From Candidatus Promineifilum breve (GTDB lineage Bacteria; Chloroflexota; Anaerolineae; Promineifilales; Promineifilaceae): a stretch of DNA of 64,000 nt. This document shows, piece by piece, positions 34,943 through 60,995 of this stretch. The notes below the pieces were generated by a model. The model made no database searches. It was given only the letters and a program-made list of their open reading frames with translations, and was not told the DNA's origin. Positions within the stretch are counted from its first letter, which is position 1. Every line of letters starts with the position of its first letter. Made by a program: the position numbers and the translations under genes. The stretch is taken from NCBI RefSeq assembly GCF_900066015.1, contig NZ_LN890655.1, forward strand, positions 3,450,726 through 3,514,725, written 5' to 3'.

Positions 34943-35035
34943 GAGGAGGACGAGGCGCGAAATGGGGCGCAACAAGCAAGCGCGAGGGACAGATGGGCGG
35001 CAAGGGCGGTCATTGTCCCACTGTGGATAACCGGA

Positions 35036-37215
35036 CGCGGCCGCAGCCTGTTTGCCTTTGAGGGATTGAAACACATGGTATGCCTCCCACTACTAAGATC
35101 TTGAAGAGTCGCGGCCGCAGCCTGTTTGCCTTTGAGGGATTGAAACCTAACAACAGCCCACACTCTGTCTGCCACGACATCGATCGCGGCCGCAGCCTGT
35201 TTGCCTTTGAGGGATTGAAACTGAATGAATTGGTACGCCAGAAAGAATTCATTGGCCGCGCGGCCGCAGCCTGTTTGCCTTTGAGGGATTGAAACCAAAC
35301 CACTCCCGTGCCATGGTGCGCAGGAAAGCCCAACGCGGCCGCAGCCTGTTTGCCTTTGAGGGATTGAAACGTACACACGGGGCATAGCTTGGGCGCATTT
35401 TTGACGGTCGCGGCCGCAGCCTGTTTGCCTTTGAGGGATTGAAACGTAACGGTAAGCGACGTAGATGATCCCGGCGATGCCGACGCGGCCGCAGCCTGTT
35501 TGCCTTTGAGGGATTGAAACTGCTAGCAGCAGCACTAAAACTCCAATCCAAATGTATTCCGCGGCCGCAGCCTGTTTGCCTTTGAGGGATTGAAACCGGC
35601 GGCCCGAATCGTACGTATACGCTCTTTCAAACGCGGCCGCAGCCTGTTTGCCTTTGAGGGATTGAAACCTCGACCACTGTTGCGGTTGGGGTCGCCGTTG
35701 GGCAATCGCGGCCGCAGCCTGTTTGCCTTTGAGGGATTGAAACCAAACCACTCCCGTGCCATGGTGCGCAGGAAAGCCCAACGCGGCCGCAGCCTGTTTG
35801 CCTTTGAGGTATTGAAACGTATGGATGGCCGTGTCGGTGTAGGCATAGGCGATGCCGCGGCCGCAGCCTGTTTGCCTTTGAGGGATTGAAACTTTCCACC
35901 CGCTTCGTCTAGATTGGGTTTCAAGACCCCGCGGCCGTGGCCTGTTTGCCTTTGAGGGATTGAAACTATACGTCGGGGATCGGAGTCTACTCTGTGGTCA
36001 TCGCGGCCGTGGCCTGTTTGCCTTTGAGGGATTGAAACATCATAAACCAGTTGTTGGTGTCGGTCAGGTACTTCCACGCGGCCGTGGCCTGTTTGCCTTT
36101 GAGGGATTGAAACCATTGCTCCAACGGCTCCAAGACCCAGTTTGGGTCCTCGGCCGTGGCCTGTTTGCCTTCGAGGGATTGAAACTTCTGGTTGGTTCAC
36201 ACAATTCAGAGGTTCAGCCGCGGCCGTGGCCTGTTTGCCTTTGAGGGATTGAAACAATTATAGGTGACATATTTCCTCCGTTGATTTGTTTGCGCGGCCG
36301 TGGCCTGTTTGCCTTTGAGGGATTGAAACGAGGTTGGGGTTAGAAAGCAGTACCTGCCTTCCCTGTCGCGGCCGTGGCCTGTTTGCCTTTGAGGGATTGA
36401 AACATGGGGCTGGCACCCCTAAAAGAGGTTGAGGATGTCGCGCGGCCGTGGCCTGTTTGCCTTTGAGGGATTGAAACACGAGGTCAATAAATGGAACGAA
36501 AGTGAGGAAAGGGCGCGGCCGCAGCCTGTTTGCCTTTGAGGGATTGAAACCAGTTATTGCCACCCTGGTAATCGGGCGTCTGATGGGCCGCGGCCGCAGC
36601 CTGTTTGCCTTTGAGGGATTGAAACAATTCCTAGCCGAAGCTGATTTCTTGCAATGCGGGCAGCGCGGCCGCAGCCTGTTTGCCTTTGAGGGATTGAAAC
36701 AATGAAATAAATAAATGAATGAGTCAAATATCCTGGCACGCGGCCGTGGCCTGTTTGCCTTTGAGGGATTGAAACTCTGTGTTTCTCACGACAGTTCTTC
36801 CTCTTGCGTTTCGCGGCCGTGGCCTGTTTGCCTTTGAGGGATTGAAACTGATACTTCACTTGATACAGTACTCTTGGAACTCAACGCGCGGCCGTGGCCT
36901 GTTTGCCTTTGAGGGATTGAAACAAGACGCTCGAACCATAAGGAGGTCCCCTCATATGTCGCGGCCGTGGCCTGTTTGCCTTTGAGGGATTGAAACACTT
37001 CGTCGTCATTTGCAACCCAACTTTGTCCGTCGCGGCCGTGGCCTGTTTGCCTTTGAGGGATTGAAACCTTACATTGGACCTTTGTAGCTTCATCTATTGC
37101 ACTCCCGCGGCCGTGGCCTGTTTGCCTTTGAGGGATTGAAACGCTTGGTAAGGCATATAACGATCAGTCAAATCTCTCCACGGCCGCGGCCTGCTTACCT
37201 TTGAGGGATGAATAC
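35036..37215 (+). CRISPR. CRISPR array, 30 repeats of 37 bp, 29 spacers
   Basis: Repeats begin CGCGGCCG and end GAGGGATTGAAAC; spacers are 33-39 bases. Transcription is on the plus strand, from the leader at the left; the last repeat (37179-37215) is degenerate, as expected for the distal end. The 3' ATTGAAAC gives the 8-base crRNA handle of type III systems. Two repeat forms differ at bases 9-11: form A has GCAGCC and form B GTGGCC. Order: repeats 1-12 A, 13-20 B, 21-23 A, 24-29 B. Repeat 11 has one further change (GAGGTATTG), and repeat 16 (36149-36185) two. Spacers 4 (35296-35333) and 10 (35744-35781) are identical. No cas gene adjoins the array; the type III-D operon with cas6 ends 12.8 kb upstream. 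Confidence 0.98.
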
Positions 37216-37259
37216 TGTATGGCAGCCCCCACCAACTTCAGGCTCTGGAAACAATAACC

Positions 37260-38014: not shown

Positions 38015-38674
38015 GTGTCATCGGAAGCCCCCGCACCAGGCGACGCCACGGAGAAACGGCCGATTAATCGCCTCGTTCTCTTGTTGGCGGCGCTGTTGCT
38101 GAGCGGTGTGCTGGTGCTGGCGGTCTGGCTGATTTGGCGCGACGGGTCATCGCCCGCGCCGGCGACTGCGGTTTCGGCCGCGCCCACCGCGGGCCGGACG
38201 CCGGCCACGGACGCGGCCGAACCGGCTACCGATGTGCCCGGCGACGGCTTCGGCCTCGTGTCCGGCCCGGCCACACCCTGGTCGGTGGCCGGCGGGCCGG
38301 GCGCGGCCACGGCTACCGCGTCGGCCTTAGCGGCGGTTCCAACGGCGACAAGTGCGCCGATAACTTTGCTCGGCCCGCCGGCCGGCAGTGCCTTCATGGC
38401 CGGCGACGTCGTCACGTTCTATTGGCAATCGCCGCAAGTTGCCGCCGCGGGGCAGCAGTTTGTGGTAATGATCGCCGCCGGTGACGAAGCGCTGGCCCTG
38501 GGCCGCATTGCGGCGGCCAATCTGGGGCAGGGCTACCAGCTACAGGGCGCGCCCGGCGCGGCCGTAGGCCAACCGGGTAACTACAGTTGGTTTGTCGTCC
38601 TGGCCGATGAAGAGGATGGGGCCATCATTGCCCAAAGCGAAAGCCGGCCGCTGATGATCCTGGCCGATAATTAA
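38015..38674 (+). CDS. Membrane-anchored extracytoplasmic beta-domain protein
   Basis: A 219-residue protein from GTG 38015. A short cytosolic N-terminus is followed by one membrane helix (about residues 19-42), a 65-residue Ala/Pro/Thr linker and a C-terminal domain of about 100 residues (GPPAGSAFMAGDVVTFYWQS; GQPGNYSWFVVLADEEDG). This last domain resembles the extracytoplasmic domain in the neighbouring kinase-like receptor (PAPNREFTLQDTISFEWYWP), with the same F-x-W and G-Y-x-W pattern. It is the first gene of the surface/signalling block. Function unknown. Confidence 0.75.
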   Translation: MSSEAPAPGDATEKRPINRLVLLLAALLLSGVLVLAVWLIWRDGSSPAPATAVSAAPTAGRTPATDAAEPATDVPGDGFGLVSGPATPWSVAGGPGAATATASALAAVPTATSAPITLLGPPAGSAFMAGDVVTFYWQSPQVAAAGQQFVVMIAAGDEALALGRIAAANLGQGYQLQGAPGAAVGQPGNYSWFVVLADEEDGAIIAQSESRPLMILADN

Positions 38675-38825
38675 CGTAAGAATCACGGCCCATCTGTGCG
38701 ATGGGAATTGCATTTTGTCGTGTATAATAGTACGCTAGATTGACTGTTAACGGTTGTCGGGTAGGGAGCAACACGGTTCTGCGAAACCGCCCACACCCCC
38801 GACAGAGGCGCGAGCAGCAGCAGTT

Positions 38826-40727
38826 ATGGTGGCAAGGGATAAAGAAGACCTGTCTGGTCAACAGATAGGCAACTACGAGATCGAATCTCACATCGCGGCC
38901 CGACCGGCCAGCGATCTGTTCCTCGCGCGTGACGTCAAGCTGGAGCGGCTCGTTTTTCTGGAAGTCTTGCGCGTGACGGAAGAAGAAGACCAGAATCTGG
39001 TCGAGCGCTTCCGCCGCCGCATGGAAACCGTCTCGCAGTTGAAAGACCCCCACGTCGCCGTCGTCAGTGACTTCGACGTGACCGACGACGGCTTCCCCTA
39101 TGCCGTCATCGACTACTTCCCGGGCGAAACGCTGGCCGAAAAGCTGGCCGATCTGCGCCACGACGGGCAGACCCTGCCGGTCATCGAGGCGCTGGAACTG
39201 ACCAAGCAGATCGCCCAGGGCCTGGGCGTGGCCCACACCGCCGGCCTGACCCACCACGATCTGCGGCCGGAAAACGTCATGCTCAGCCAGGACGGCGCGC
39301 CGATCCTGATCGATTTCGGTGTCCCCGTCGTGCCCCATGCCCAGCCGCCCGGCGTCAACGGCGCCGAGGGCGAACTGCTCGATTACACCGCGCCGGAAGT
39401 GGCCGAGGGCAAACCGCTGACCCGCCGCAGCAACATCTACTCGCTGGGCGTCATCCTCTACGAACTGCTGGCCGGCCATCAGCCCAAGCTGCCCAACCTG
39501 CCCTACGACATCTTCCCCCAGGCCAACATGCCCAAGGAAGAGCCGCTGGAAGAAGCCCGCCCCGGTCTGGCCGGCGAAACCTACCGGCTGGTGCGCAATT
39601 GCCTGTGGCGGCAGGAATGGAGCCGCTTCGAGACGACCGACGAGTTGATCACCGCCATCGAGACGGCCATCTTCGCCGAGCAGGAACTGCCCAAGGCCAC
39701 AACCGCCTGGACGCCCCAGCGCGGCCGGTCGATGGCCTTCGTCATCCCCATCGCCCTGGTGCTGGTGGGCATCCTGGCCTTCTTCCTGCTGCGCGGCATT
39801 ATGGGCAACCGCAACGCCCAGGCCGACGAGCCGACGGCCGAGGGCACGCCAGCCGGCACCTTCGTGGCCGGGGCCGACACCGCCGAACCCTCGCCCACGG
39901 AATCGCCAACGGCCGAACTGCCGACCGAGGCGGCGCAGGATTTCTCCATCAACGTCGTGTTTCCCGCGCCCAATCGCGAATTCACCCTTCAGGATACGAT
40001 CAGCTTCGAGTGGTATTGGCCGACGCTGCCCGAGCCGGGTATGCACTTCGCCGTCTATCTGATCGATGGTGAACAGGAGCATCTACTGGGCGCGCTGGAC
40101 GAGCCGAACAACGGCGGCAACTACCTGCTGGCCGTTCCCGGTGCCGATATACCGGCCACGGGCGAAGAGTTGGGCTGGCAGATTCGGCTGGAAAGCGTGG
40201 CCGGCGGCGACGTGTTCGTCGCCAGCGACGTGATCCCGATCATCATCCGCGACGCCCTGCCGACGCCCACGGCGGCCACGACCGACACCGTCGCGCCGAC
40301 TGCCGGAACCCCGACCGTGGGCGCCTCGCCCACCGTCTGCGCCGTCGACCCGCCGCCGGGCTGGATTTACTACACCGTTCGCGCCGGCGATTCGCTGTCC
40401 GACCTGGCCGAAAACGCCAACATCCTGGTCGAGACCCTGTTGCAGGTCAACTGCCTGCCCAACGTCCTGCTCAGCGTGGGCCAGCAGATTTGGGTTCCGC
40501 CGGGGTCTGTGCCGCGCACGCCGACGCCGCCATCGCTAGCGACGCCCACCAACCCGCCGCGACCGACCTCGCCGCCCAGCGCCACCGATCGGCCGACGAC
40601 AATCGCGCCAACGACCGCGCCGACCGATCCGCCAACCACCGCGCCGACCGATCAGCCAACGGAACCGCCGGCTACGGATGCGCCTACAAACACGCCCCCG
40701 TCGCCAGTGACTGAAGTGCCGCCGTAA
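38826..40727 (+). CDS. Kinase-fold receptor with extracytoplasmic LysM domain, probable pseudokinase
   Basis: A 633-residue protein with a PknB-like layout. The kinase fold spans residues 18-285, a membrane helix lies at about 304-323, then a beta domain (about 375-475), a LysM domain (YYTVRAGDSLSDLAENANIL, about 498-545) and a long Pro/Thr tail. The kinase part departs from the active pattern: the glycine loop is lost (IAARPASDLF), and the beta-3 lysine is glutamate (VFLEVL, E46). HRDLKPEN reads HHDLRPEN, while DFG (163-165) and APE remain. It may bind nucleotide weakly or act as a scaffold. An upstream TTG at 38754 could add 24 residues. TATAAT at 38723-38728 may be the -10 box. Confidence 0.85.
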   Translation: MVARDKEDLSGQQIGNYEIESHIAARPASDLFLARDVKLERLVFLEVLRVTEEEDQNLVERFRRRMETVSQLKDPHVAVVSDFDVTDDGFPYAVIDYFPGETLAEKLADLRHDGQTLPVIEALELTKQIAQGLGVAHTAGLTHHDLRPENVMLSQDGAPILIDFGVPVVPHAQPPGVNGAEGELLDYTAPEVAEGKPLTRRSNIYSLGVILYELLAGHQPKLPNLPYDIFPQANMPKEEPLEEARPGLAGETYRLVRNCLWRQEWSRFETTDELITAIETAIFAEQELPKATTAWTPQRGRSMAFVIPIALVLVGILAFFLLRGIMGNRNAQADEPTAEGTPAGTFVAGADTAEPSPTESPTAELPTEAAQDFSINVVFPAPNREFTLQDTISFEWYWPTLPEPGMHFAVYLIDGEQEHLLGALDEPNNGGNYLLAVPGADIPATGEELGWQIRLESVAGGDVFVASDVIPIIIRDALPTPTAATTDTVAPTAGTPTVGASPTVCAVDPPPGWIYYTVRAGDSLSDLAENANILVETLLQVNCLPNVLLSVGQQIWVPPGSVPRTPTPPSLATPTNPPRPTSPPSATDRPTTIAPTTAPTDPPTTAPTDQPTEPPATDAPTNTPPSPVTEVPP

Positions 40728-40750
40728 TCTATCGGCTTTTCCATTTTCGA

Positions 40751-40813
40751 TTGGCAAATTTGTGTGAGAAGCGTTAGTATTCCCGTACTATCTAATAGTA
40801 CCGGAGTACTATT
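40751..40813 (+). promoter_or_regulatory. Candidate promoter and operator before the large surface-protein gene
   Basis: The 319-base gap 40728-41046 holds TTGGCA (40751-40756), 18 bases, then TAGTAT (40775-40780), a possible promoter. Just downstream is a perfect 8-base inverted repeat, AATAGTAC at 40794-40801 and GTACTATT at 40806-40813, which could be a repressor site or a 5' hairpin. The remainder is a 230-base leader with no ORF I would support. Confidence 0.45.
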
Positions 40814-41046
40814 GCCGCTTGTATCGTTAAAAATGTGTTCCGTTGTCGAGCCGGGCCGGGAGTGGGTCAGGTTGAGCCATATTTTCACCTCTTCTTAACC
40901 GCCGCGCCGGCCGAATGACGGTAACATAGAATTCGGCATCCCGTAACGGTCGGCCGCCTCGCGGTCGGGTAGCAGTTCTTGGGCCTATGGGAGCACGATT
41001 CCGGTTGCGCGCCGACTGTGGCGCGATGAGGAGTACTGGAGCAATC

Positions 41047-44000
41047 ATGAAGACAAAGTCCACCGTTCTCAGCCTGGGTTCCTTGCTGGCCGCCCTGGCA
41101 TTTATCCTATTGGCCGTTTCCCCCGTTCTCGCCCTGCCGCCGGTCATCAACAACCAGACGCTGACCATCCCCGAGAACAGCCCGGATGGGACGTTTACCG
41201 ATCCGAGTTTCATCAAGGCATATGACAAGGAAGACAAGCCGCTGACCTATGATGTCATTGGCGGCGACGGCGAAACCCTGTTCGAGGTTGGTTTCACGAC
41301 CGGACAGGTGACGGTCATCGATGGCAGCCTGCTCGATTATGAAACCAAGAAGAGCTACGTCCTCGTCGTCAAGGTCGAGGACGTGGAAGCGCTGTCGGAT
41401 TCGGCCGAAATCACCATCAACCTCGTCGATGAATCCGACGAGCCGCCGTCGATGGACGACCAGACCTTCAACGTGCCCGAGAACACCGCCAACAGCGGCA
41501 CGGTGGGCCAACTCGCTTTCGATGACGTCGACGTCAACGACACCCACACCTTCACCATCCTGAGCGGCAACGGCACCGGCCTGGGCGCGTTCCAGATCGA
41601 CTCGACCGGCAAGATCGCCGTCAAGGATACGACCCAGCTCAATCGGGAAGCCACCCCCCAGTTTGTCCTGACGGTCAAAATTCAGGACGAAGCCGGCTTC
41701 TCCGACACGGCCCAGATCACCATCAACGTGACCGACATCAACGAGAACCCGGTGGTCAACGATACGACCTTCACCATCAGCGAGGCGGCGGCCAACGGCA
41801 CGGTCGTCGGCACGGTGACGGCCACCGACCCCGAAGGCGGCGCGCTGACCTTCACCCGCTCCGGCACGACGGCCTTCAGCATCAACGCCACCACCGGCCA
41901 GGTCACCGTGGCCGATAACACCCAACTCGACTACGAGACCCATCCGACGATGACCTTCGTCGTCACCGTGACCGACCCCGGTGGCAAGACCGACACGGCG
42001 ACGATCACCGTCACTCTGGACGAATTCAACGACCCGCCGGAAATAGAAGGCGACGGCATCGACGACGTCATCGTCAACGAAGGCACGGCTTCCAAAGTCG
42101 TCAATTTATGGAGCGCCTTCCAGGATGACGAGGACGAAGACGCCGAGCTGACCTTTCTGGTGTGGGACGTCGACAATGACGCGCTCTTCGATGCCGATCC
42201 GGCCATTAGCAATGCTAACGGCACCCTGTTCCTGGATTTCGCCCCCAATGCTGCCGGCGTCGCCAACATCACCGTGCGCGCCTTCGATCAGGGCGGCGAG
42301 CACGTCGACGACACCTTCGAGGTCAACGTCAACGATTCCCCCGTGCCCGCCGGCTATGACAACGTTACCGTCAATGAAGACGCGCCGAACGCGCTGATCG
42401 ATCTCTACGACGGCTTCACCGATGATGAGCAGCCGTCGTCGGCGTTGCTCTACGAAGTCATCGGCAACAGCAACCCCGGCCTGTTCTCGTCGGTCAATAT
42501 CAATTTGCCCAATCTGGTACTCGATTTTGCCGCCGACGCCAACGGCCAGGCTAACATCACCATTCGGGCCACCGACAGCGGCGGTCTCAGCGCGCAGACA
42601 ACCTTCAACGTGAAGGTCAATGCGGTCAATGACCCGCCGACGACGAGCGGCATCGCCGACGTGAGCGTGGGCGAAGACGCGCCCGATACGGTCATCGACC
42701 TGGCCGACGCCTTCGACGATAAGGAAGACGATCCTGAGCAGCTTGTTTTTGAAGTGGAAGACAACTCCAACCCCAATCTCTTCGAGTCAGTGACGGTCAA
42801 TCCGGGGCTGGCGACGCTGACGCTCAACTACAAGCCCAACACGTCGGGCAGCGCCATCCTGACCATTAAGGCCACCGACAAGGGCGTGCCCGGCGTGCCC
42901 AACTCCAGCCAGTCGGTGGAGACAAGCTTCGATGTGACCGTCGGCGGCGTCAACGATGCGCCGACCCTAACCAGCTTCAGCAAGAATACAGAGGAGGACG
43001 TGGCGATCCAGTTCACCCTCAACGACTTCACGTCGAAGTACAGCGATGAGGACGGGGATCCGCTGGTCAACATCCGTATTGATACGCTGCCGGCCAACGG
43101 CACGCTCAAGCTGGGCGACGCCAACGTGACGGCCAACCAGGTCATCCCCGCGGCCGGCGTGGCCGGCCTCATCTTTGTGCCCGCTCCCAACTGGGATCAG
43201 GGCGCGACTACTTTTGAGTGGAACGCGTCCGACGGCGCGGCCTTCGCCGCCGCCCCGGCCACCGTCACCATTAACGTTAGCGCCAAAAACGACGCGCCTA
43301 TCGTGACCAATTTCGAGAAGTTCGGCCAGGAGGGCATCAACGTCCTCTTCACCGAGACCGACTTCACCGGCGCTTTCTCCGACGTCGACGGCGACTCGCT
43401 GGTCAAAATCAAGATCGATTCCCTGCCCGGCCACGGTTCGCTGAAGTTGGTCAACAGTCCGGTCACCGTCAACCAGCAAATCAATAAAGATAGCCTGAAG
43501 GATCTGCGCTACGTGCCCGATCAGTTCTTCTTCGGCGAGGATAGCTTCGGTTGGTCCGGCTCCGACGGCGCGGTCTATTCGTCGCCGGCCACGGTCAAGA
43601 TCACCCTCAGCCCGAAGAATGACCCGCCGGCGCTCGATCTGAACGGCGACGGCGTCGGCACCGGCTTCACCGCCAAGTTTGTCGCCGGCGGCAACCCGGT
43701 GGTCATCGCCGGGCAGGGCCTGGACATCACCGACATCGACAGCACCATGATGCAGAGCGCGACGATCATCATCGTCAATCGCCAGAACGGCAACAAGGAG
43801 CTCCTCGACGCCAACGTGGCCGGCACCAACATCACCAAGGAATTCAGCCCCGGCAGCGGTGTGCTATTCCTGACCGGCCCGGACACCATCGCCAACTTCG
43901 AGAAGGTGCTCAGGACGGTCGACTATGAGATCGCGCCCGACGTGGCTAACCCGAATACCGACACCGTGCGCAACGTGAGCTTCCGTGTCTACGACGGCGA

Positions 44001-45777
44001 ACTGAACAGCAACGACGCCGTCTCCAAGGTTACGGTCATCAACCCGCGCATCGAGATCACGGTGACGCCCCCCTTCCAGACGGTGGCTAAGGGCGAGACG
44101 GCCCTCTTCACCATCGTCGTCAAAAATACCGGCAACGTTGATCTGGAGAACATCATCGTCAGCTCGGCCGCCGTGCCCGATTGCAACCGCCAGTTCGACG
44201 AACTGGCCGCCGGTCAATCGTTGGATGCCTATGCCTGTATCATCTCGCAGGTGCAGGAACGAACCGATAACGAAGTCGTGGTCACGGCGCAGGACAAAGA
44301 GGTGGGCAGCCAGGTGACCGACGAAGACGAGTCCATCGTGCGCGTGCTCCAGGACATCATCGTTGACATTTCCACCGCGCCCAGCGTGGGCGACACGCTG
44401 ATCAAGGGGCAGAACGCCGTCTTCAATGTCACGGTGATCAACCCCAGCGAGGCCAACCTGAAGGCCGTGGAGGTGAAGGCCTTCGTCGATTACGACCTGG
44501 CGGTGGAAGCGGCTGCGCCCAACGCGCCGATCCCGGCCACCGAGTGCGATAAGGTCATCGGCAATCTCGATGCCGGCGACGAAAGCACCTATAGCTGCAC
44601 CATCAACAACGTGCAGTCTTCCTTCCAGATCGAGGTCCGGGCCACGGGCTTGATCGACGGGGTCATCGAGACCGACGACTTCGACATCGACGAGATCGGC
44701 GTGCTCGACCTGACGTTGGAAGCGTTCTCTCTGCCGTTCACCATCCTGGCTGGGCAGCCGACGTTGGTCGAATTCAGCCTGACGCTGAACAACATCAGCA
44801 ACGTACCGCTGACCCTGAGCAGCCTGGAGAGCAATCTGCACGGCAATCTGTTGAACGCCGGCAACGGGGCCATCAGCGCCAACACCTGCCCCGGCCTGAA
44901 CCTGGCTATCCCGGCCGGCGAAGTGCGTAGTTGCTCCTATGAAGTGACGCTCATCCTGCAACCGCCGGCGCTCACCAACGTGATTACCGCCGTGGTCGCC
45001 AACGGCGGCAACAAGCAAATGACTGTGGTCGATGAGGCGCTGGTCAGCGTGGCCGACTTCTCACCGCTGGAAGTGACCCTGTCCGCCGACCCGCCCAGCC
45101 TGGTCGCGCCGGGCGGCATCGTCAACCTGACGGCTCAGGTCACCAATAACACCACGGGCGACCTGACCCTCGATGGACTCACCGACTCGATTGAGGGCAA
45201 CCTGAGTGGTAAGGGCACTTGCCAGACGCCGCGGATGATCCCCGGTAACGGCAGCTACACGTGCACCTATTCGGTGACGGTCAGCGGCCAACAGGCCGGC
45301 AACATCGTCACCCACGTCGTCACGGCCATCGCCGACGCCGAAGAGGCCAGCGACTCCGTGGCTATCTCGATCACGTCGTTGTCACAGACGACGATCCGGC
45401 TGCCCGTTGTCTCGAAAATGGGCGTGGCCGGCGAACCCAATAACAGCGTCTGCTCGGCAATGCCCATCATGCCCAACGTGAACAACTACTATCTGGCCGA
45501 CGATACGACCGACTGGTATCGCGTGACGCTGGACAGCGCGGCCCAGCTGAAGGTTAAGCTCAGTGGGTTCATGGTCGAGGGACAACTCGTGGCCTACGGC
45601 GGTAATTGCGCCGCCCCGGGCAACCCGATCGGCCACAATGGCGATCTCGGCATTGTCCCCAATCGTGAGCTGAACCTGGGACTCCAGCCGGCCGGCACCT
45701 ACTTCATCTGGGTCATCGCCAACACGGTCAGCGCTTCGACCGCACCCTACACGCTGCGCGTGGAATCGACGCCGTAG
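41047..45777 (+). CDS. Large secreted surface protein with cadherin-like and CARDB-like repeats
   Basis: A 1576-residue protein with a signal peptide (LAALAFILLAVSPVLA). Three cadherin-type repeats come first (INNQTLTIPENSPDGTFTD; VNDTTFTISEAAANGTVVGT, with ATDPEGG and QLDYET motifs). Next are Ig/VCBS-type repeats (VNDPPTTSGIADVSVGEDAP), two copies of a roughly 105-residue module (VNDAPTLTSFSKNTEEDVAI) and DUF11-like repeats. The C-terminal domain after RLPVVSK resembles bacterial pre-peptidase C-terminal domains (EPNNSVCSAMP; DDTTDWYRVTLDSAAQLKVK). Acidic D-x-D-x-D stretches suggest calcium binding. The start at 41047 is preceded by GGAG; the upstream start at 40987 lacks a signal-peptide fit. 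Probably an adhesin or matrix protein. Confidence 0.88.
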   Translation: MKTKSTVLSLGSLLAALAFILLAVSPVLALPPVINNQTLTIPENSPDGTFTDPSFIKAYDKEDKPLTYDVIGGDGETLFEVGFTTGQVTVIDGSLLDYETKKSYVLVVKVEDVEALSDSAEITINLVDESDEPPSMDDQTFNVPENTANSGTVGQLAFDDVDVNDTHTFTILSGNGTGLGAFQIDSTGKIAVKDTTQLNREATPQFVLTVKIQDEAGFSDTAQITINVTDINENPVVNDTTFTISEAAANGTVVGTVTATDPEGGALTFTRSGTTAFSINATTGQVTVADNTQLDYETHPTMTFVVTVTDPGGKTDTATITVTLDEFNDPPEIEGDGIDDVIVNEGTASKVVNLWSAFQDDEDEDAELTFLVWDVDNDALFDADPAISNANGTLFLDFAPNAAGVANITVRAFDQGGEHVDDTFEVNVNDSPVPAGYDNVTVNEDAPNALIDLYDGFTDDEQPSSALLYEVIGNSNPGLFSSVNINLPNLVLDFAADANGQANITIRATDSGGLSAQTTFNVKVNAVNDPPTTSGIADVSVGEDAPDTVIDLADAFDDKEDDPEQLVFEVEDNSNPNLFESVTVNPGLATLTLNYKPNTSGSAILTIKATDKGVPGVPNSSQSVETSFDVTVGGVNDAPTLTSFSKNTEEDVAIQFTLNDFTSKYSDEDGDPLVNIRIDTLPANGTLKLGDANVTANQVIPAAGVAGLIFVPAPNWDQGATTFEWNASDGAAFAAAPATVTINVSAKNDAPIVTNFEKFGQEGINVLFTETDFTGAFSDVDGDSLVKIKIDSLPGHGSLKLVNSPVTVNQQINKDSLKDLRYVPDQFFFGEDSFGWSGSDGAVYSSPATVKITLSPKNDPPALDLNGDGVGTGFTAKFVAGGNPVVIAGQGLDITDIDSTMMQSATIIIVNRQNGNKELLDANVAGTNITKEFSPGSGVLFLTGPDTIANFEKVLRTVDYEIAPDVANPNTDTVRNVSFRVYDGELNSNDAVSKVTVINPRIEITVTPPFQTVAKGETALFTIVVKNTGNVDLENIIVSSAAVPDCNRQFDELAAGQSLDAYACIISQVQERTDNEVVVTAQDKEVGSQVTDEDESIVRVLQDIIVDISTAPSVGDTLIKGQNAVFNVTVINPSEANLKAVEVKAFVDYDLAVEAAAPNAPIPATECDKVIGNLDAGDESTYSCTINNVQSSFQIEVRATGLIDGVIETDDFDIDEIGVLDLTLEAFSLPFTILAGQPTLVEFSLTLNNISNVPLTLSSLESNLHGNLLNAGNGAISANTCPGLNLAIPAGEVRSCSYEVTLILQPPALTNVITAVVANGGNKQMTVVDEALVSVADFSPLEVTLSADPPSLVAPGGIVNLTAQVTNNTTGDLTLDGLTDSIEGNLSGKGTCQTPRMIPGNGSYTCTYSVTVSGQQAGNIVTHVVTAIADAEEASDSVAISITSLSQTTIRLPVVSKMGVAGEPNNSVCSAMPIMPNVNNYYLADDTTDWYRVTLDSAAQLKVKLSGFMVEGQLVAYGGNCAAPGNPIGHNGDLGIVPNRELNLGLQPAGTYFIWVIANTVSASTAPYTLRVESTP

Positions 45778-45850
45778 GCCAGGCAACAGAACCGACCGGC
45801 TAGCGCTCGATCTTGCGGCCGGGGTGGCGCGGGTTAACGTGAATGGTAAC

Positions 45851-45887
45851 TGTCCGGCATCCGTCCCCTTGTGGCGGATGCCGGACA
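45851..45887. terminator. Hairpin between surface-protein genes
   Basis: A 13-bp perfect stem (TGTCCGGCATCCG, 45851-45863, with 45875-45887) and an 11-base loop lie 73 bases after the stop of the large gene. There is no T-run. It may be a weak terminator or mRNA-stability element that tunes expression of the next gene, whose ribosome site (AAGGAAG) begins just downstream. Confidence 0.5.
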
Positions 45888-45909
45888 ATCCATTAAGGAA
45901 GTGGGCGAC

Positions 45910-47841
45910 GTGAGTAGTTCAAAACGATCAACCATTGTGCTTCTGGTAATTGGCCTGGCCGTCATCGTCGTGTTGGGCCTGACTGGTGGTCTGCGGATTG
46001 GGGCGGCGGCCGACAATACGACCGGCGTCGCCACGACCGGCGTCGCCACGACCGGCGTCGCCACGACCGGTGTCGCCACGACCGGCGCGCCCCTTATCCT
46101 GTCGGCCCACCAACCGCGCCGGCAAGATTTCTTCGCCGGCGGCGATGCCGAGATCACCGTCAATATCACCAACACCGGCAGCATCCCCTTCCAGACGGTC
46201 ACCGTCAGCGGCGCGACCTTCGCCGATTGTAACCGCGGCAATCTGGGCGCTTTGGCCCCCGGCCAGTCCACGTCGTATACCTGTGGGCAGGATAACGTCA
46301 ACCAAAGCGTCCTGAACGAACTCCAGGTAAACGGCTCCACCGGCGCCACCACCGTCAACCACAAATCCAACTCATTTGTCAAGGTGCTGAAGCCGGAAGT
46401 GCGCATCACCAAAACCCCCCAGGTGCAGACCATCCGCCAGGGAGCGACGGCCTTTTTCACGGTGACCATCTATAACACGTCCGATTTCGTGATGACCCTC
46501 GAGGAGGTGGACGACTCGCTGGCCAATGATTGCGATCGCAATCCGACGATCACCGTCTACCTTCAGCCGGGGGATAGCCTCGATTACGCCTGTTCGATGG
46601 CTAACGTCCAAAGCCCCCAGGCCACCGTGGCTACCGTGCGCGTCCGGAATCCGGTCACCACGACCGAGTATACTGCCAGCGACGTGGCCTGGGTCGAATT
46701 GCTGGATCTGGAAGCGGTGCTGACGCCGCAGCCGGCCACCATTCTGGAACCGGGCGATCTGGTGACCTATACGGTGGAACTGATCAATACGGGCAGTCTG
46801 CCGGTTACGCTGGTCGGCCTGACGACCAACAAATACGGCAACATCCTCGATCCGGGCAATACCCAGCTGGAAGCGGCCGACAACACCTGCCTGCCGCAGC
46901 CCACGCTGCCGACCCTCTCGCCGTTTGGCGGTAGTTATACCTGTAGCTTCATCGCGCCGGTGGAAGGACAACCGTCCGACTTCAGCGTTATCCTGACGGC
47001 AACGGCCCGCAGTCAGGGCTTGCTCGACGTGACGGCGACGACGAACGCCACCGTTCAGATTATCAACGTGCCGGCGTCGATGAAAGTTACGCTCAGCGCC
47101 GATCCGCCGTTTATCAATCCGCCCAGCCAACTGATTACCTTCAGTGTGAGCGTCGAAAACACCAGCGGCGCGGACGCCATCAACATCCTGGCCATGGCTG
47201 ATGAATTTCTGGGCGATCTGAACGGCCGGGGCAATTGCGAGTTGCCGGTCCAGGGGTTGCCGGCCGGCTACTCGTATCAGTGTCACTTCTCGACTGTGGT
47301 GGCCGGCGAAGTGGGGCAAGAAAAATCGCGCACGATCTCGGTCGAGGCCGAGAGCGACGATCTGATCGGCGAACCCCTGTCCGTCAGCGAGATCGTGAAG
47401 GTCGTCATCACCGACCAGCCGACGCGCTATAACTACATGCCCAACGTGAGCGACCATACATTAGATCGGACGAGTTGCGCGCGGCCCTACCCCTTGCGGC
47501 CGGACACCCAATATTTTTTCCGGCCGCCCAACCAGTATGACTCGACCCTGCCTGTGGAACAGCGCGAGCAGGATTACTTCACCTTCACGCTGGCCGAGAG
47601 CGCCGCGGTGCGGGTGGAGTTGACCAACTTCGTGCCGCTCAAGGGACAGTTGATCATCCGGCCGCACGTCGTGGGTGGCTCCACGCCCTGCGGCCCGTCT
47701 TTGGGCCGCAACCCCGACGAGGCGCTGAACAAAATAGTCGACCTGGGCACGATACCGGCCGGCCGCTATTACATCCAGCTGATCAACGACGGGCCGTCCA
47801 ACGTGGCCGATCTCTACGGGCTGTTCGTGCGGGTAGACTAA
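45910..47841 (+). CDS. Membrane-anchored or secreted surface protein with DUF11/CARDB-like repeats
   Basis: A 643-residue protein from GTG 45910, chosen because AAGGAAG precedes it; the GTG at 45871 lies in a hairpin. The N-terminal hydrophobic segment (STIVLLVIGLAVIVVLGLTG) is a signal or anchor. A 5-residue repeat TTGVA (15-bp DNA repeat, 46018-46088) follows. Then come four roughly 110-residue Ig-like repeats, each with NTG or NTS, a GDSLDYACS-type turn and paired cysteines, similar to the repeats in the previous protein. The last part (YNYMPNVSDHTLDRTSCARP; GTIPAGRYYIQLINDG) corresponds to the C-terminal domains of both neighbouring surface proteins. Confidence 0.82.
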   Translation: MSSSKRSTIVLLVIGLAVIVVLGLTGGLRIGAAADNTTGVATTGVATTGVATTGVATTGAPLILSAHQPRRQDFFAGGDAEITVNITNTGSIPFQTVTVSGATFADCNRGNLGALAPGQSTSYTCGQDNVNQSVLNELQVNGSTGATTVNHKSNSFVKVLKPEVRITKTPQVQTIRQGATAFFTVTIYNTSDFVMTLEEVDDSLANDCDRNPTITVYLQPGDSLDYACSMANVQSPQATVATVRVRNPVTTTEYTASDVAWVELLDLEAVLTPQPATILEPGDLVTYTVELINTGSLPVTLVGLTTNKYGNILDPGNTQLEAADNTCLPQPTLPTLSPFGGSYTCSFIAPVEGQPSDFSVILTATARSQGLLDVTATTNATVQIINVPASMKVTLSADPPFINPPSQLITFSVSVENTSGADAINILAMADEFLGDLNGRGNCELPVQGLPAGYSYQCHFSTVVAGEVGQEKSRTISVEAESDDLIGEPLSVSEIVKVVITDQPTRYNYMPNVSDHTLDRTSCARPYPLRPDTQYFFRPPNQYDSTLPVEQREQDYFTFTLAESAAVRVELTNFVPLKGQLIIRPHVVGGSTPCGPSLGRNPDEALNKIVDLGTIPAGRYYIQLINDGPSNVADLYGLFVRVD

Positions 47842-47990
47842 TACCTTAAGCCGGAACTTCATGTCCCGGCGCTAAACTAGGCAAGAACGGAGGCTATGGG
47901 ACACAGTCGAGATGCTCGGTAGGGAGCCGGGTGTATCAAACTAACGGTTACGGAATGATTTCCGGCCGGGAGGCAAATGCACGAATTTAG

Positions 47991-49691
47991 ATGGCAGTAG
48001 CGAGTTTGTTCGAAGATCTACTCGATCAATACAAAATAGAACAACTCATCGCCGCGAAGCGTTATACGGACTTGTTTCAGGCCTATGACGTGGATGATGA
48101 TCGCCTCGTCCGGCTCGACGTGGTGCATGCCGGGTTGGCCGAGGATAGCGCCTTCGCCGGCCAGTTCATTAGCCGCGCCCGCGCCCTGGCCCAGGTGCGC
48201 CATTCCAATATCGCCCCCATCCTCCACGTGGGCAAGACGACCGGCGGCGCGCCCTATGTGACCCAGGCGGCCATCGACGGCTCGCCGCTGTCCCACCGTC
48301 TGGAGCAGCTTGCCCAACGCACCACGCCTGTCAACTCGATCTATGCCCTCAAGCTGATCCGCCAGTTAGCCGACGCGCTGCTGCTGGCCGAGCGCCTGGA
48401 AATCTTTCATTACGACCTGCAACCCGATAACGTCCTGCTGAAAAACGTCACCCGCCCGACCGATGATTCGGTGGTGCTGATCGATCTGTTCATTCCCGCC
48501 GAGCGCCCGACCCGCACCGCCGCGCCGGAGGATACGCCCAACGCGGCCTACCTTTCGCCGGAGCAGCGCGCCGGCCGCGCCGTCACCGCGCCTAGCCACG
48601 TTTATTCGCTGGGGGCGATGTTGTACCGTTTGCTGGCCGGCCACCTGCCGGGCGGTTCGGTCAGCATGGGCGATACCGTCATCAACCGCACCTTTGGCCG
48701 GGCCACGGCCCTGGAGCGCGACCGGGGCGATCTGTCCCCGGCGACCTACGCCCTGATCGACCGCGCGCTGCGCAAAGACCCTCGCGGCCGTTTCCCAACC
48801 ATCGAAGCCTTTGTGGTTGCTCTCGACGACGCCCTGGCCGCCGAGGAGGTGCGCCTGGGGTCGGCCGCCGGCAACCGCGCGCCGGCCGATGCCCGGCCCC
48901 GGCCGTGGATATTCGCGCTGCTCGTGCTGGCCTTGCTCCTGGCCGTGGGCGCGGTGGCGGCGCGTAACCTGGTCGACCGCGCCCCCACCGCCGGGCCGGC
49001 CGCCACGCCGACCGCCGGCCAGACGCTAGTGGCCGTTGTGGCCTCTCTGACGCCGGCTGCGACCGACGAACCGACGGCCATCCCCGCCACCACCAACGCT
49101 GACGAGGCGGCCCCGGCCGTCCAGGATACGACCGTCCCTGAGCCGACCGTCGCTTCCCCCAGCCCGACGCCCACCCCGACCCCCACCGCGCCCCCCACGT
49201 CCGCTCTACCGACGGCGACGCTGGAGCAGCCGCTGGTGCGGGTCATTTTCAATCTAGTCAATCTGCGCCGTGGGCCGGGTGTGGGCTTTGCCACGATGGG
49301 CAGCGTGGCCGGCGGCGAATTGCTGGAGGTCGTGGCCCGCAACGATGACGAGGCCGATCTGTGGTATCTGGTGGTCACCGCCGACCAGCGTGTTGGCTGG
49401 ATCGCCGAGGAAGTGGTGCAGGTCACCTCGGTGGAGGCGCTCCAGGACGTGCCGGTGGCGGCGACGATTCCGCCCGCCCCCATCATCCTGCCCACAGCCA
49501 CGGTGACGCCCACGCCGACCGTCATAGCCCCGTTTACGGTCGTGCCGACGATCGATCCCGACGATGATAACGGCGGCGGCGAAGGCGGCGGAACCAGCGA
49601 GCCGCCCCCACCGCCGACGGCCGAACCGACCGATATACCGGGGGAACCGCCGACACTGACACCGCCGCCCCTTCCGACAGTTGAGTCCTGA
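47991..49691 (+). CDS. Kinase-fold receptor with extracytoplasmic SH3 domain, clear pseudokinase
   Basis: A 566-residue protein: a kinase fold at residues 14-285, a membrane helix at about 303-325, a Pro/Thr linker, a bacterial SH3 domain (FNLVNLRRGPGVGFATMGSV, about 412-480) and a Pro-rich tail. Catalytic residues are lost: the glycine loop is IAAKRYTDLF, the beta-3 lysine is D43 (LVRLDVV), HRDLKPEN reads HYDLQPDN, and DFG reads DLF (165-167). It is a paralogue of the LysM receptor at 38826. It may sense cell-wall or surface changes and signal without phosphorylation. The ATG at 47991 has no close ribosome site; GGGAGG is about 18 bases upstream. Confidence 0.85.
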   Translation: MAVASLFEDLLDQYKIEQLIAAKRYTDLFQAYDVDDDRLVRLDVVHAGLAEDSAFAGQFISRARALAQVRHSNIAPILHVGKTTGGAPYVTQAAIDGSPLSHRLEQLAQRTTPVNSIYALKLIRQLADALLLAERLEIFHYDLQPDNVLLKNVTRPTDDSVVLIDLFIPAERPTRTAAPEDTPNAAYLSPEQRAGRAVTAPSHVYSLGAMLYRLLAGHLPGGSVSMGDTVINRTFGRATALERDRGDLSPATYALIDRALRKDPRGRFPTIEAFVVALDDALAAEEVRLGSAAGNRAPADARPRPWIFALLVLALLLAVGAVAARNLVDRAPTAGPAATPTAGQTLVAVVASLTPAATDEPTAIPATTNADEAAPAVQDTTVPEPTVASPSPTPTPTPTAPPTSALPTATLEQPLVRVIFNLVNLRRGPGVGFATMGSVAGGELLEVVARNDDEADLWYLVVTADQRVGWIAEEVVQVTSVEALQDVPVAATIPPAPIILPTATVTPTPTVIAPFTVVPTIDPDDDNGGGEGGGTSEPPPPPTAEPTDIPGEPPTLTPPPLPTVES

Positions 49692-49765: not shown

Positions 49766-52700
49766 ATGAGCGAATGTAACGTTATGAATACCAACAAACG
49801 ACGATCAAGGGTCTGGTTATGGCTGCTGCCGTTGATCGTTTTGGCCTACCAGGTCGCCATTGTGGCTGCCGCCGCCGTGCCCCCGACCCTTGACCTGAAC
49901 GGCGACGCGCCCGGCGCCGATTTTAGCGCTACCTTCACCGAGGACGAAGGCGCGGAAGCCATCGTCAGCGTGACCGGCCTTACTATCGACAACGGCGAGG
50001 ACACCACCCTGACCGCGGCCAAGGCCACACTGACCAACATGCCCGATACCGTGCATGAATCGCTGGCGGCCAACGCCGGCGCCACCGGCCTCACCGTGCA
50101 ATATGCCGAGGAAAGCGGCCAACTGACCATCAAGGGCAGCGCCTCCGTGGATGCCTATAAGGAAGTCCTGCGCACCCTGACGTATCATAACACCTCCCAA
50201 TCGCCCGACTTCGCCGACCGCATCGTGCTGGTGACGGTCAGCGACGGGCAGATGACCAGCCTGCCGGCCACCAGCACGGTGGCTATCAATGCCGTCAACG
50301 ACGCGCCGGTGCTAGATAATAGCGGCGAGATGACGCTGGTCGCCATCAACGAGGATGAGACGGCGTCCGCCGGCAATTCGGTGATGACCATCATCAAGTC
50401 GGCCGAAACGGGCGGCGAGGATCGCATCACCGACGCCGACGAAGGCAGTCCCGAGGGCATTGCCGTTATCGAGACCGGTTCCGCCAACGGCGTCTGGCAA
50501 TATTCGATCACCGCCGGCGCGTCCTGGCTGCCGTTCGACGCCGTGTCCAACACCTCGGCCGTCTTGCTCGACGGCGCGGCGCGCATTCGCTTCGTGCCCA
50601 ACCCGAACTTCAGCGGCTCGGCCGGTTTCTCGTTTCGCGCCTGGGATCAATCGGGCGGCCGCCCCAACGGTTCGACCGGCATCGACGTCTCCCTCAACGG
50701 AGGTATTACGCCCTTCAGCGCCGAATCGGAGATGGTGACGATCAACATCCTGACGGCCAACGATCTGCCCCTCGTCGATCTGAACGGCCCGGCCGCCGAT
50801 TCCGATTATGCGACGCAGTTCTACGAGAGCGGCGCGCCCGCGCCCATCGCCGACCCGGCGGCCACCGTCAGTGACGAGGATCACGCCTCGCTGGCCTCGC
50901 TGATCGTCACGCTGACCAACCGGCCCGACGGCGCGGCCGAATCGTTGGCGGCCACGACCACCGGCACCAACATCACCGCCGCGCCCTATGATCCCGCCAC
51001 CGGTCGCCTGGTGCTGACCGGCCCGGATACGACGGCCAACTTCCAGCAAGTCGTCCGCCTCATCGCCTATAACAACACCTCGGTCGGGCCGGCCACGGTT
51101 GTCCGTAGTGTGACCGTGGTCGCCAACGATGGCGTGAACGATGGCCCCGTCGCGACCAGTACCATCGCGGTGCATCCGGTCAACAGCGCCCCGGTGCTGG
51201 CCCCGGCGGCGTTGGCGTTGGGCAATGTGGCCGAGGATACGACCCAGCCGGCCGGCGCGATGATCGCCCAACTGTTGGCCGCCGCCGGCGATCCCATCAC
51301 CGATGCCGATACCGGCGCGCAGGAGGGTATCGCCATCATCGGCGCCGATAGCGTCCACGGCCAATGGCAATATGCCACGGCCAACCCGCCCGCCGGCGCG
51401 GCCGATTGGCTGCCGGTGGCCCCCGTCAGCCCGACCGCCGCGCTTCTGCTCACGGATACCTCCTGGTTGCGTTTTGTGCCCGCGCCCAACTACGCCGGGC
51501 AGTCCGGCAATCTGACCTTCCGCGCCTGGGATCGCACCAGCGGCGCCAACGGTCTGCGCGACGTGGACGTGAGCGCCAATGGCGGAACCACCGCCTTCAG
51601 CGTCAACAGCGGCACACTGGCGGCGGTGGTCACCCCGACCAATGACTTGCCTATTGTCGCCGGACTGCCCGCCGCGCCGCTGCTCTACGTGGAGGACGAC
51701 GACCCCATGCTCCTGGCCGGTAGTACGCTCACCATCAGTGACGTGGACAACACGCTGTTGTCGTCGGCCACCGTCCGGCTGACCAACCCGCTCGACGGGG
51801 ATGCCGAGTGGCTGCTGGCCACTACCGACGGCCTGGGCATCACCGCCGCCTATGCCGACGGCGTGCTGCAATTGACCGGCGCGGCCTCGCCCGCCGCCTA
51901 TCAGCAGGTGTTGCGCAGTGTCAGCTATTGGAACGCCTCCCAGGACCCCAGCCCCGACGACCGCCTGATCGAATTCAGTGCGGCCGATAATGTCAGTAGT
52001 GGCCCGACAGCCGGTCTGGTGGTCCAGGTGCAGCCGGTCAACGACCCGCCGGAAATCGATCTGGACGGCGTCGGCCCCGGGCTGGATTTTGTCACGACCT
52101 TCTTCATCAATCGCGGCCCCGTGTTGGTGTCGGCCCAGAGCATGACCGTGACCGACATCGACAACACGACGCTGAAATCGGCCACGGTGCGCATCACCAA
52201 CCCCCAGGACGGGCAGGCCGAAATCCTGGCCGCCGATATCACCGGCGTGAGCAACATCAAGGTTAGCTATGATCTCGCCGGCAATACGCTCACTCTGAAC
52301 GGGGTGGATAGCCTGGCGAACTATCAGCGCGTGTTGCGCACCGTGACCTATAACAATACCTTGCCCCAGCCGGACACCGCGACGCGCCAAATCGAATTCA
52401 TCCTGGCCGATAGCGCCGGCGTCAGCGACGCGCGACGGACGTCCCTGACCTTCGCCGTGGCCCCCAACGCCCGCCTCTTGCTGCCGATGGTGACCTGGGC
52501 CTACCCGCGCAGCGAGGAACCCAACGACACCTGCGCCCAGGCGCTTGGCCTCATGCTCAACAATGATCAATCGTTCCAGGCCGATGATGAGAACGACTGG
52601 TTCTACTTCGATCTGCCGGCGGCGGCCGACGTGGTGGTCGAGATGCACGATTTCACGCCATTGACCGGGCAGATCGTCGTCGCCGCCGAGAGCGAGCCGG

Positions 52701-52876
52701 GCCAGGGCTGCAAGAACCCACGATTTCTAGCCAACAACGGTTCCAGCGACAGCGACAAATTTGTCCCCCTGGGCCAACAACCGGCCGGGCGCTACTACGT
52801 CTGGGTCATCAACGACGGCCTACAGAGCGCCGAGGCCATCTATCGCCTGTATATCCGCGCCGTGCCGCCGGCTTGA
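49766..52876 (+). CDS. Large secreted surface protein with cadherin/VCBS-like repeats
   Basis: A 1036-residue protein with a signal peptide (VWLWLLPLIVLAYQVAIVAA). The body holds at least four repeats of about 130-150 residues that begin LDLNGDAPGADFSATF or similar, carry VTDIDNTTLKSATVRITNP-type motifs and end VLRTVTYNNT. This module also occurs once in the 1576-residue protein (LDLNGDGVGTGFTAKF). Two longer inserts have FVPNPNFSGSAGFSFRAWD. The C-terminus (RLLLPMVTWAYPRSEEPNDT; ENDWFYFDLPAAADVVVEMH) is the same pre-peptidase-like domain as in its neighbours. ATG 49784 is an alternative start. The next gene's promoter overlaps its stop. Confidence 0.87.
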   Translation: MSECNVMNTNKRRSRVWLWLLPLIVLAYQVAIVAAAAVPPTLDLNGDAPGADFSATFTEDEGAEAIVSVTGLTIDNGEDTTLTAAKATLTNMPDTVHESLAANAGATGLTVQYAEESGQLTIKGSASVDAYKEVLRTLTYHNTSQSPDFADRIVLVTVSDGQMTSLPATSTVAINAVNDAPVLDNSGEMTLVAINEDETASAGNSVMTIIKSAETGGEDRITDADEGSPEGIAVIETGSANGVWQYSITAGASWLPFDAVSNTSAVLLDGAARIRFVPNPNFSGSAGFSFRAWDQSGGRPNGSTGIDVSLNGGITPFSAESEMVTINILTANDLPLVDLNGPAADSDYATQFYESGAPAPIADPAATVSDEDHASLASLIVTLTNRPDGAAESLAATTTGTNITAAPYDPATGRLVLTGPDTTANFQQVVRLIAYNNTSVGPATVVRSVTVVANDGVNDGPVATSTIAVHPVNSAPVLAPAALALGNVAEDTTQPAGAMIAQLLAAAGDPITDADTGAQEGIAIIGADSVHGQWQYATANPPAGAADWLPVAPVSPTAALLLTDTSWLRFVPAPNYAGQSGNLTFRAWDRTSGANGLRDVDVSANGGTTAFSVNSGTLAAVVTPTNDLPIVAGLPAAPLLYVEDDDPMLLAGSTLTISDVDNTLLSSATVRLTNPLDGDAEWLLATTDGLGITAAYADGVLQLTGAASPAAYQQVLRSVSYWNASQDPSPDDRLIEFSAADNVSSGPTAGLVVQVQPVNDPPEIDLDGVGPGLDFVTTFFINRGPVLVSAQSMTVTDIDNTTLKSATVRITNPQDGQAEILAADITGVSNIKVSYDLAGNTLTLNGVDSLANYQRVLRTVTYNNTLPQPDTATRQIEFILADSAGVSDARRTSLTFAVAPNARLLLPMVTWAYPRSEEPNDTCAQALGLMLNNDQSFQADDENDWFYFDLPAAADVVVEMHDFTPLTGQIVVAAESEPGQGCKNPRFLANNGSSDSDKFVPLGQQPAGRYYVWVINDGLQSAEAIYRLYIRAVPPA

Positions 52877-52901
52877 CAGCTTCGCCCACCTGTTCTATAA
52901 T
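52873..52901 (+). promoter_or_regulatory. Consensus sigma-70 promoter of the recombinase-like gene
   Basis: TTGACA (52873-52878), exactly 17 bases, then TATAAT (52896-52901): a perfect consensus match. The -35 box overlaps the stop codon of the surface protein. The expected start site is near 52908, 34 bases before the ATG. Confidence 0.9.
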
Positions 52902-60748: not shown

Positions 60749-60995
60749 GGTTCGTTGTCCTCTATAATCGAATGATATTGCGAACGATGAATTGCTGCCG
60801 TGGAGAACTCAATAGGATAGTCTATCACAATTGGCCGGTCGTGGCGACCTTAACCCGCCGGTCGTTGCCAATGTTATATTTACCTAAGAGATTTTCTGCC
60901 GGCCGGTGGAATGGATATACTCTCGTGATTACAATCGTTGTCCATCCTGTCGGCCTGGATGGCATTAGTTTTTAACCCGGTTGCCCGAACGTAAC

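Follow-up and report, generated by a model that had tools for sequence, protein, structure and literature searches.

Two predicted receptor-like pseudokinases with LysM and SH3 ectodomains at a surface-protein locus of Candidatus Promineifilum breve

What can a membrane receptor do with a kinase domain in which the catalytic residues have been replaced? This question is raised by two genes, here called KinA and KinB, in a stretch of 64,000 nucleotides (the window) of the Candidatus Promineifilum breve genome (5.03 Mb, three contigs; window at positions 3,450,726 to 3,514,725 of NZ_LN890655.1). Bacterial pseudokinases are largely uncharacterised (PMC12599244). It is probable, though held here with some reserve, that KinA and KinB are non-catalytic, wall-anchored receptors which bind a partner, and that this partner is probably an active Hanks-type kinase. 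The parts of both genes, in window coordinates, are as follows.

38826..40727, + strand: KinA, predicted receptor-like pseudokinase with LysM (open reading frame (ORF), Pfam, PknB alignment, hydropathy, AlphaFold (AF2) model, Foldseek); alternative start TTG at 38754
38868..39710, + strand: KinA pseudokinase domain, amino acids (aa) 15-295 (PknB alignment, AF2 model)
38961..38963, + strand: KinA E46 codon, beta3 Lys to Glu (alignment; within predicted beta3, 41-48)
39018..39020, + strand: KinA R65 codon, alpha-C Glu to Arg (alignment; within predicted alpha-C, 56-70)
39432..39434, + strand: KinA N203 codon, invariant alpha-F Asp to Asn (N in 28/28 KinA-type domains, D in 58/58 active kinases)
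39477..39680, + strand: KinA alpha-G to alpha-I surface, aa 218-285, DIF ... CLWRQEWSRFET
39735..39791, + strand: KinA transmembrane helix (hydropathy; predicted helix 303-327)
39936..40265, + strand: KinA immunoglobulin (Ig)-like all-beta extracellular domain (AF2 model, strands 376-475, high predicted local distance difference test score)
40371..40499, + strand: KinA LysM domain (PF01476, E 1.3e-8)
47991..49691, + strand: KinB, predicted receptor-like pseudokinase with bacterial SH3 (ORF, Pfam, PknB alignment, hydropathy, AF2 model, Foldseek)
48117..48119, + strand: KinB D43 codon, beta3 Lys to Asp (alignment)
48174..48176, + strand: KinB R62 codon, alpha-C Glu to Arg (alignment)
48903..48974, + strand: KinB transmembrane helix (hydropathy; AF2 model)
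49257..49418, + strand: KinB bacterial SH3 domain (PF08239, SH3_3, E 1e-6)

Both proteins are built in the same way, namely, an N-terminal kinase-like domain, one hydrophobic helix, a Thr/Pro-rich linker, and an ectodomain, which is the Ig-like domain plus LysM in KinA and the bacterial SH3 domain (SH3b) in KinB. Each has the two-lobed Hanks-type (PknB-like) kinase fold. Pfam Pkinase is matched above its cut-off of 31.7 bits by KinA (E 1.2e-22, 81 bits) and by KinB (E 7.9e-13, 48.8 bits), the fold is modelled by AlphaFold with good confidence for KinA and fair confidence for KinB, and PknB and PknA are the closest solved structures in Foldseek (E to PknB 6e-20 for KinA and 2e-19 for KinB). The fold, the N-in single-transmembrane receptor layout, and a wall-binding ectodomain are held in common with the PknB/StkP family. 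However, LysM or SH3b stands where PASTA kinases have PASTA repeats, and the 450-bit threshold of NCBIfam NF033483 (Stk1 family, PASTA kinase) is missed by KinA (163.6 bits) and KinB (109.4 bits).

In an ungapped alignment with PknB, the beta3 Lys position is taken by E46 in KinA (VFLEVL) and by D43 in KinB (VRLDVV), and 19 residues further on, the same spacing as from Lys to Glu in PknB, the alpha-C Glu is replaced by Arg in both (R65 and R62). An acidic residue at beta3 and an Arg at alpha-C mean that the charges of the canonical Lys-Glu pair are reversed. Neither protein retains the glycine loop, the second Gly of which is a basic residue instead (R26 in KinA, K23 in KinB), the HRD Arg is His in KinA (HHD) and Tyr in KinB (HYD), the HRD-loop Lys is Arg147 in KinA (HHDLRPEN) and Gln144 in KinB (HYDLQPDN), and the alpha-F Asp is Asn203 in KinA and His203 in KinB. 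DFG is intact in KinA and reads DLF in KinB, and the APE motif is intact in both. Replacement of the beta3 Lys, alpha-C Glu, HRD Arg, HRD-loop Lys, and alpha-F Asp is what, next to the ectodomain, sets the pair apart from PknB/StkP. An earlier, sequence-only reading of the locus had described two retained kinase folds, with LysM and SH3 outside the membrane, the E46 and D43 replacements, the lost glycine loops, and a KinB without DFG, all of which agree with the present results. The loss of the HRD-loop Lys, which it had ascribed to KinB, does apply to KinB but is not peculiar to it, and the alpha-C and alpha-F replacements had been missed.

The complete set of residues that marks an active Ser/Thr kinase (beta3 Lys, alpha-C Glu, HRD-loop Lys, and DFG) is thus found in neither protein. 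A bacterial pseudokinase is defined on sequence by replacement of at least one of the beta3 Lys, HRD Asp, and DFG Asp, conserved in orthologues, and by this definition KinA and KinB are both predicted pseudokinases. Residue comparison suggests that they would lack kinase activity.

Are these replacements peculiar to one genome? Both genes have orthologues in 7/7 further genomes sampled from the genus, as well as in a second genus. At beta3, alpha-C, and the HRD loop, the residue is replaced in every aligned orthologue (single motif letters are hidden by ambiguous bases in a few rows), and no orthologue with an intact kinase site was found among them. As the replacements recur in independently assembled genomes, sequencing errors are ruled out. 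Genes decaying on their way to loss would likewise show several lost catalytic residues, but the frames are open, the replacements are common to the orthologues, synteny extends over eight genomes of the genus and into other genera, and the within-genus ratio of nonsynonymous to synonymous polymorphism (pN/pS) is 0.2-0.33 in the kinase domains, so that decay or error is hardly credible as an explanation.

For the residue census and the tree, 42 pseudokinase domains from the host's bacterial family were compared with 58 active kinases from the sampled genomes, the latter defined by retention of the beta3 Lys, and the phylogeny was built with the motif columns removed. The 42 domains form one clade nested among the 58 active kinases (bootstrap/Shimodaira-Hasegawa-like approximate likelihood ratio test 100/98). 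This clade splits into a KinB-type (n=14, 100/99) and a KinA-type (n=28, 100/99), and the latter includes five domains in tandem with an active kinase (100/100). Of the 42 domains, 28 have an acidic residue at beta3, 13 have another non-Lys residue, and one has a gap, i.e., Lys in 0/41 readable domains, while alpha-C carries Arg or Lys in 41/41 readable domains as against Glu in 56/58 and Ser in 2/58 active kinases. The alpha-F Asp and the HRD-loop Lys are each absent from 42/42 pseudokinase domains and present in 58/58 active kinases. Both types show an acid at beta3 and a base at alpha-C, for which an ancestral charge reversal is the simplest account. Other catalytic positions vary across the clade: the catalytic Asp is D, N, H, or E, the catalytic-loop Asn is N, H, S, A, or L, and the metal-binding (DFG) Asp is D, A, G, or N.

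This variation bears on whether the proteins could be atypical active kinases, in which the role of the beta3 Lys passes to R26 (KinA) or K23 (KinB) in the glycine loop or to the alpha-C Arg. POMK, which takes its Lys from the glycine loop, offers a precedent (PMC12599244), the second Gly has given way to a basic residue in 11/15 KinA-type and 10/11 KinB-type proteins of the first sequence set, and the catalytic Asp, catalytic-loop Asn, and metal Asp are intact in Promineifilum KinA and KinB. Their sister proteins, some of them from the same locus, lose the catalytic Asp (to N, H, or E), the catalytic-loop Asn, or the metal Asp, however, and an acidic beta3 residue would be expected to repel phosphate. 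The HRD Arg, HRD-loop Lys, and alpha-F Asp are all absent, and KinB has DLF, all of which makes an active enzyme of this kind improbable.

Among 396 genomes drawn from the class, only those of the host's family gave hits of at least 121 bits to a KinA C-lobe profile, and the same gene, with 90-95% C-lobe identity, is found in several Promineifilum sp. metagenome-assembled genome records. In the family census, KinA-type profiles reach threshold in 24/52 genomes and 10/22 genera. A LysM-like tail accompanies the KinA-type across genera and an SH3-like tail mostly the KinB-type, as judged by eye outside the window and L139; in L061 no SH3 lies within the part read. One KinA-type pseudokinase, L100 (G014:C191), has no detected transmembrane segment or ectodomain and is encoded near a sensor histidine kinase, an active Hanks kinase, and FtsH. 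The genome that carries the window also encodes a divergent kinase, L081 (G000:C1:2353253-2353804), with the beta3 Lys kept, the catalytic Asp replaced by Asn (HLN), and DSG for DFG; it sits on a very long branch outside the KinA/KinB clade. A cluster of at least eight kinase genes is found in the same genome at G000:C2:227169-251076, several of which (e.g., C2:250321) belong to the active-kinase group nearest to the pseudokinase clade.

If not catalysis, what has been maintained? Within the genus, pN/pS is 0.205 for the KinA and about 0.32 for the KinB kinase domain as compared with 0.67-0.76 for the linkers, and the cytosolic domain is more conserved than the ectodomain. The most constrained part of KinA is the region from alpha-G to alpha-I, with 92% mean identity and a pN/pS of 0.076. 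Y253 is found in 40/42 pseudokinase domains and in 0/58 active kinases, and F230, W261, and W265 are found in 23/23 stand-alone KinA-type proteins. Drifting catalytic residues next to fixed non-catalytic positions are the pattern of a predicted binding module.

An indication of the possible partner comes from relatives in which it may be part of the same protein. In five genomes (G016, G021, G252, G321, and G408), an active kinase lies N-terminal to a KinA-type pseudokinase in a single chain, and the four receptors whose C-terminal parts were read (G016, G021, G252, and G321) continue into a transmembrane segment and a LysM-like tail. Single-chain kinase-pseudokinase proteins were recorded as L139:5113-7629, L140:487-2898, L033, L030, and L146, and the clades formed by one half match those formed by the other. 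Genus g10 has three such genomes, and in each the fused gene is followed by a gene for a TgpA-like protein with a transglutaminase domain. Metazoan JAK also holds a kinase and a pseudokinase in one chain, although the pseudokinase comes first there and second in the fused relatives of KinA.

The genes around KinA and KinB belong to the same conserved cassette, which is completed by the following features.

38015..38674, + strand: small single-transmembrane protein, 219 aa, first gene of the cassette (ORF call)
40987..45777, + strand: secreted cadherin-like/Big_9 repeat protein, 1596 aa (PF00028 E 5e-33, PF17963 E 1e-26; syntenic)
45871..47841, + strand: secreted DUF7507/CARDB-like protein, 656 aa (PF24346 E 1e-10; syntenic)
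49766..52876, + strand: secreted cadherin-like repeat protein, 1036 aa, last gene of the cassette (PF19699, PF17803; syntenic)

The pair had been said to lie between large adhesin genes, which fits the cadherin-like, Big, and DUF7507 secreted proteins but not the gene upstream of KinA: the extracellular part of the 219-aa protein resembles the Ig-like ectodomain of KinA, and its relatives, which precede KinA at syntenic loci, also match KinA (29-38% identity). Throughout the genus, the order is ectodomain-like protein, KinA, cadherin-like protein, DUF7507 protein, KinB, and cadherin-like protein, in places followed by an integrase-like gene, either complete or up to contig ends; in G004, the cassette is split over two contigs, each with the expected half. 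Genus g16 has the full set in G022, and the ectodomain-like protein, KinA, KinB, and one adhesin in G406, while genera g4, g15, and g3 have the order KinA, secreted protein, KinB. KinA, adhesin, and KinB genes are thereby co-localised in five genera (g1, g16, g4, g15, and g3). In G252, G321, and G340, KinA-type genes adjoin adhesin-like genes, with no KinB detected. No transcription stop was found with confidence inside the cassette. At 52873-52901 there is a perfect sigma70-type promoter consensus (TTGACA-17-TATAAT) for the gene after the cassette; it overlaps the last cassette gene's stop and the TTG listed as the start of the integrase-like gene, and the true start of that gene is therefore probably further downstream.

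With three large secreted repeat proteins encoded alongside and wall-binding LysM and SH3 domains on the receptors themselves, the pseudokinase domains might be pure structural anchors, which fix the adhesin layer via the membrane or cytoskeleton with no kinase partner and no signalling, much as the membrane pseudokinase EssB/YukC serves as a structural hub (PMC12599244). Such a role is rather unlikely, as it is the cytosolic domain, and not the ectodomain, that is most conserved, and as the KinA-type module is joined to an active kinase in five genomes.

The binding-module pattern and these fusions together favour a wall-anchored adaptor that would control a partner. The LysM of KinA and the SH3b of KinB would tether the two paralogous receptors either to the cell wall or to surface proteins encoded by neighbouring genes. 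The kinase fold would be retained without its chemistry, with the reversed Glu/Asp-Arg/Lys pair probably still pinning helix C. A partner, most likely an active Hanks-type kinase acting in trans, would dock on the alpha-G to alpha-I surface of KinA, and the pseudokinase would scaffold or allosterically switch this kinase upon a change in the state of the wall or adhesins. The sequence-only reading had likewise preferred a scaffold or sensor system over classic phosphorylation and had named conservation of the changed residues in homologues as a check. The replacements proved to be conserved, and the preference is further supported, at the level of sequence, by the drifting catalytic residues, the fixed C-lobe surface, the five-genus synteny, and the cis fusion. 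More tentatively, the pair may form a co-receptor system in which two paralogous dead kinases, both with a wall-binding ectodomain of their own, report the wall or adhesin state allosterically to an active kinase that is fused in some relatives, with helix C pinned by the charge-reversed pair, following the logic of JAK or EFR/BAK1.

Several observations weigh against an adaptor for an active kinase. The fused receptors do not have the F/W surface of stand-alone KinA, and the cis fusion may therefore use a different interface. KinB has no similarly constrained surface (pN/pS about 0.33 in both lobes), and the alpha-G to alpha-I surface of KinA could bind a non-kinase partner. Nucleotide binding is possible, since the catalytic Asp, catalytic-loop Asn, and metal Asp are all retained in core-genus members. 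Loss of the F/W residues in the fused receptors was considered as evidence for kinase binding in trans by this surface but is not taken as proof, because their later gain in stand-alone KinA would be just as parsimonious.

How does the adaptor proposed here compare with known systems? The plant receptor kinase EFR acts on BAK1 without catalysis of its own (PMC11259431), i.e., a non-catalytic kinase domain acts on an active kinase; neither for EFR nor for JAK is homology to KinA and KinB claimed outside the kinase fold. Comparison by published features with ActPs1, ActPs3, GLW, CP1, DYD, DLHK, EssB, and MviN (ActPs2 was left out) gave no match to any of their descriptions. MviN (ActPs3) of Mycobacterium tuberculosis is a membrane pseudokinase in cell-wall control which, besides being a substrate of PknB, recruits a partner (PMC12599244). 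It resembles KinA and KinB as a membrane protein with a dead Hanks kinase domain linked to the cell wall. However, ActPs3/MviN is actinobacterial, belongs to a protein needed for peptidoglycan synthesis, reads VALT at beta3, and lacks HRD, DFG, and the activation loop (PMC12599244), whereas the degradation of all three motifs with activation-loop deletion is not seen here: KinA keeps the catalytic Asp and DFG, and APE is present in both. EssB/YukC of type VII secretion, a transmembrane pseudokinase serving as a scaffold (PMC12599244), differs in its catalytic-motif decay and in its secretion-system partner, and no LysM/SH3 ectodomain is described for it. In DYD pseudokinases and POMK, an altered beta3/alpha-C ion pair is compensated by another residue (PMC12599244), the beta3 residue there being Arg or a Lys coming from the glycine loop, whereas the pair in KinA and KinB has its charges reversed; instead of the beta3 Arg and DYD motif, they have Glu/Asp and DFG/DLG or DLF. 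GLW pseudokinases have GLW for HRD and Leu/Trp for the beta3 Lys (PMC12599244) where KinA and KinB have HHD/HYD and Glu/Asp, and CP1 and DLHK have no transmembrane segment and carry COG3899, helicase, or DNA2 domains, as opposed to one transmembrane helix and a LysM or SH3 ectodomain. No named family for the clade was found in Pfam, NCBIfam, or the open-licence literature, nor any open-licence paper on the clade or on a charge-reversed beta3/alpha-C pair. The KinA/KinB clade is a new family among bacterial pseudokinases, which are themselves a known kind.

Elsewhere in the window, a clustered regularly interspaced short palindromic repeats (CRISPR) array at 35032-37231 has 30 repeats of about 37 nt, CGCGGCCG[CA/TG]GCCTGTTTGCCTTTGAGGGATTGAAAC, with two repeat variants in alternating blocks and spacer sequence that is duplicated in at least one place (99% over 115 nt), and a 661-aa protein with three DsbA/Thioredoxin_4 stretches is encoded at 60981-62966.

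With two receptor types that differ in their ectodomains, a conserved charge reversal at the Lys-Glu pair, a candidate docking face under sharp conservation, and active paralogues in the same genomes, the clade offers a tractable natural series for the study of bacterial pseudokinases, and the cis-fused kinase-pseudokinase receptors suggest where a partner may be sought. Filamentous Chloroflexota serve as a backbone of sludge flocs (PMC10746286), and the locus ties putative signalling to surface repeat proteins in these bacteria.

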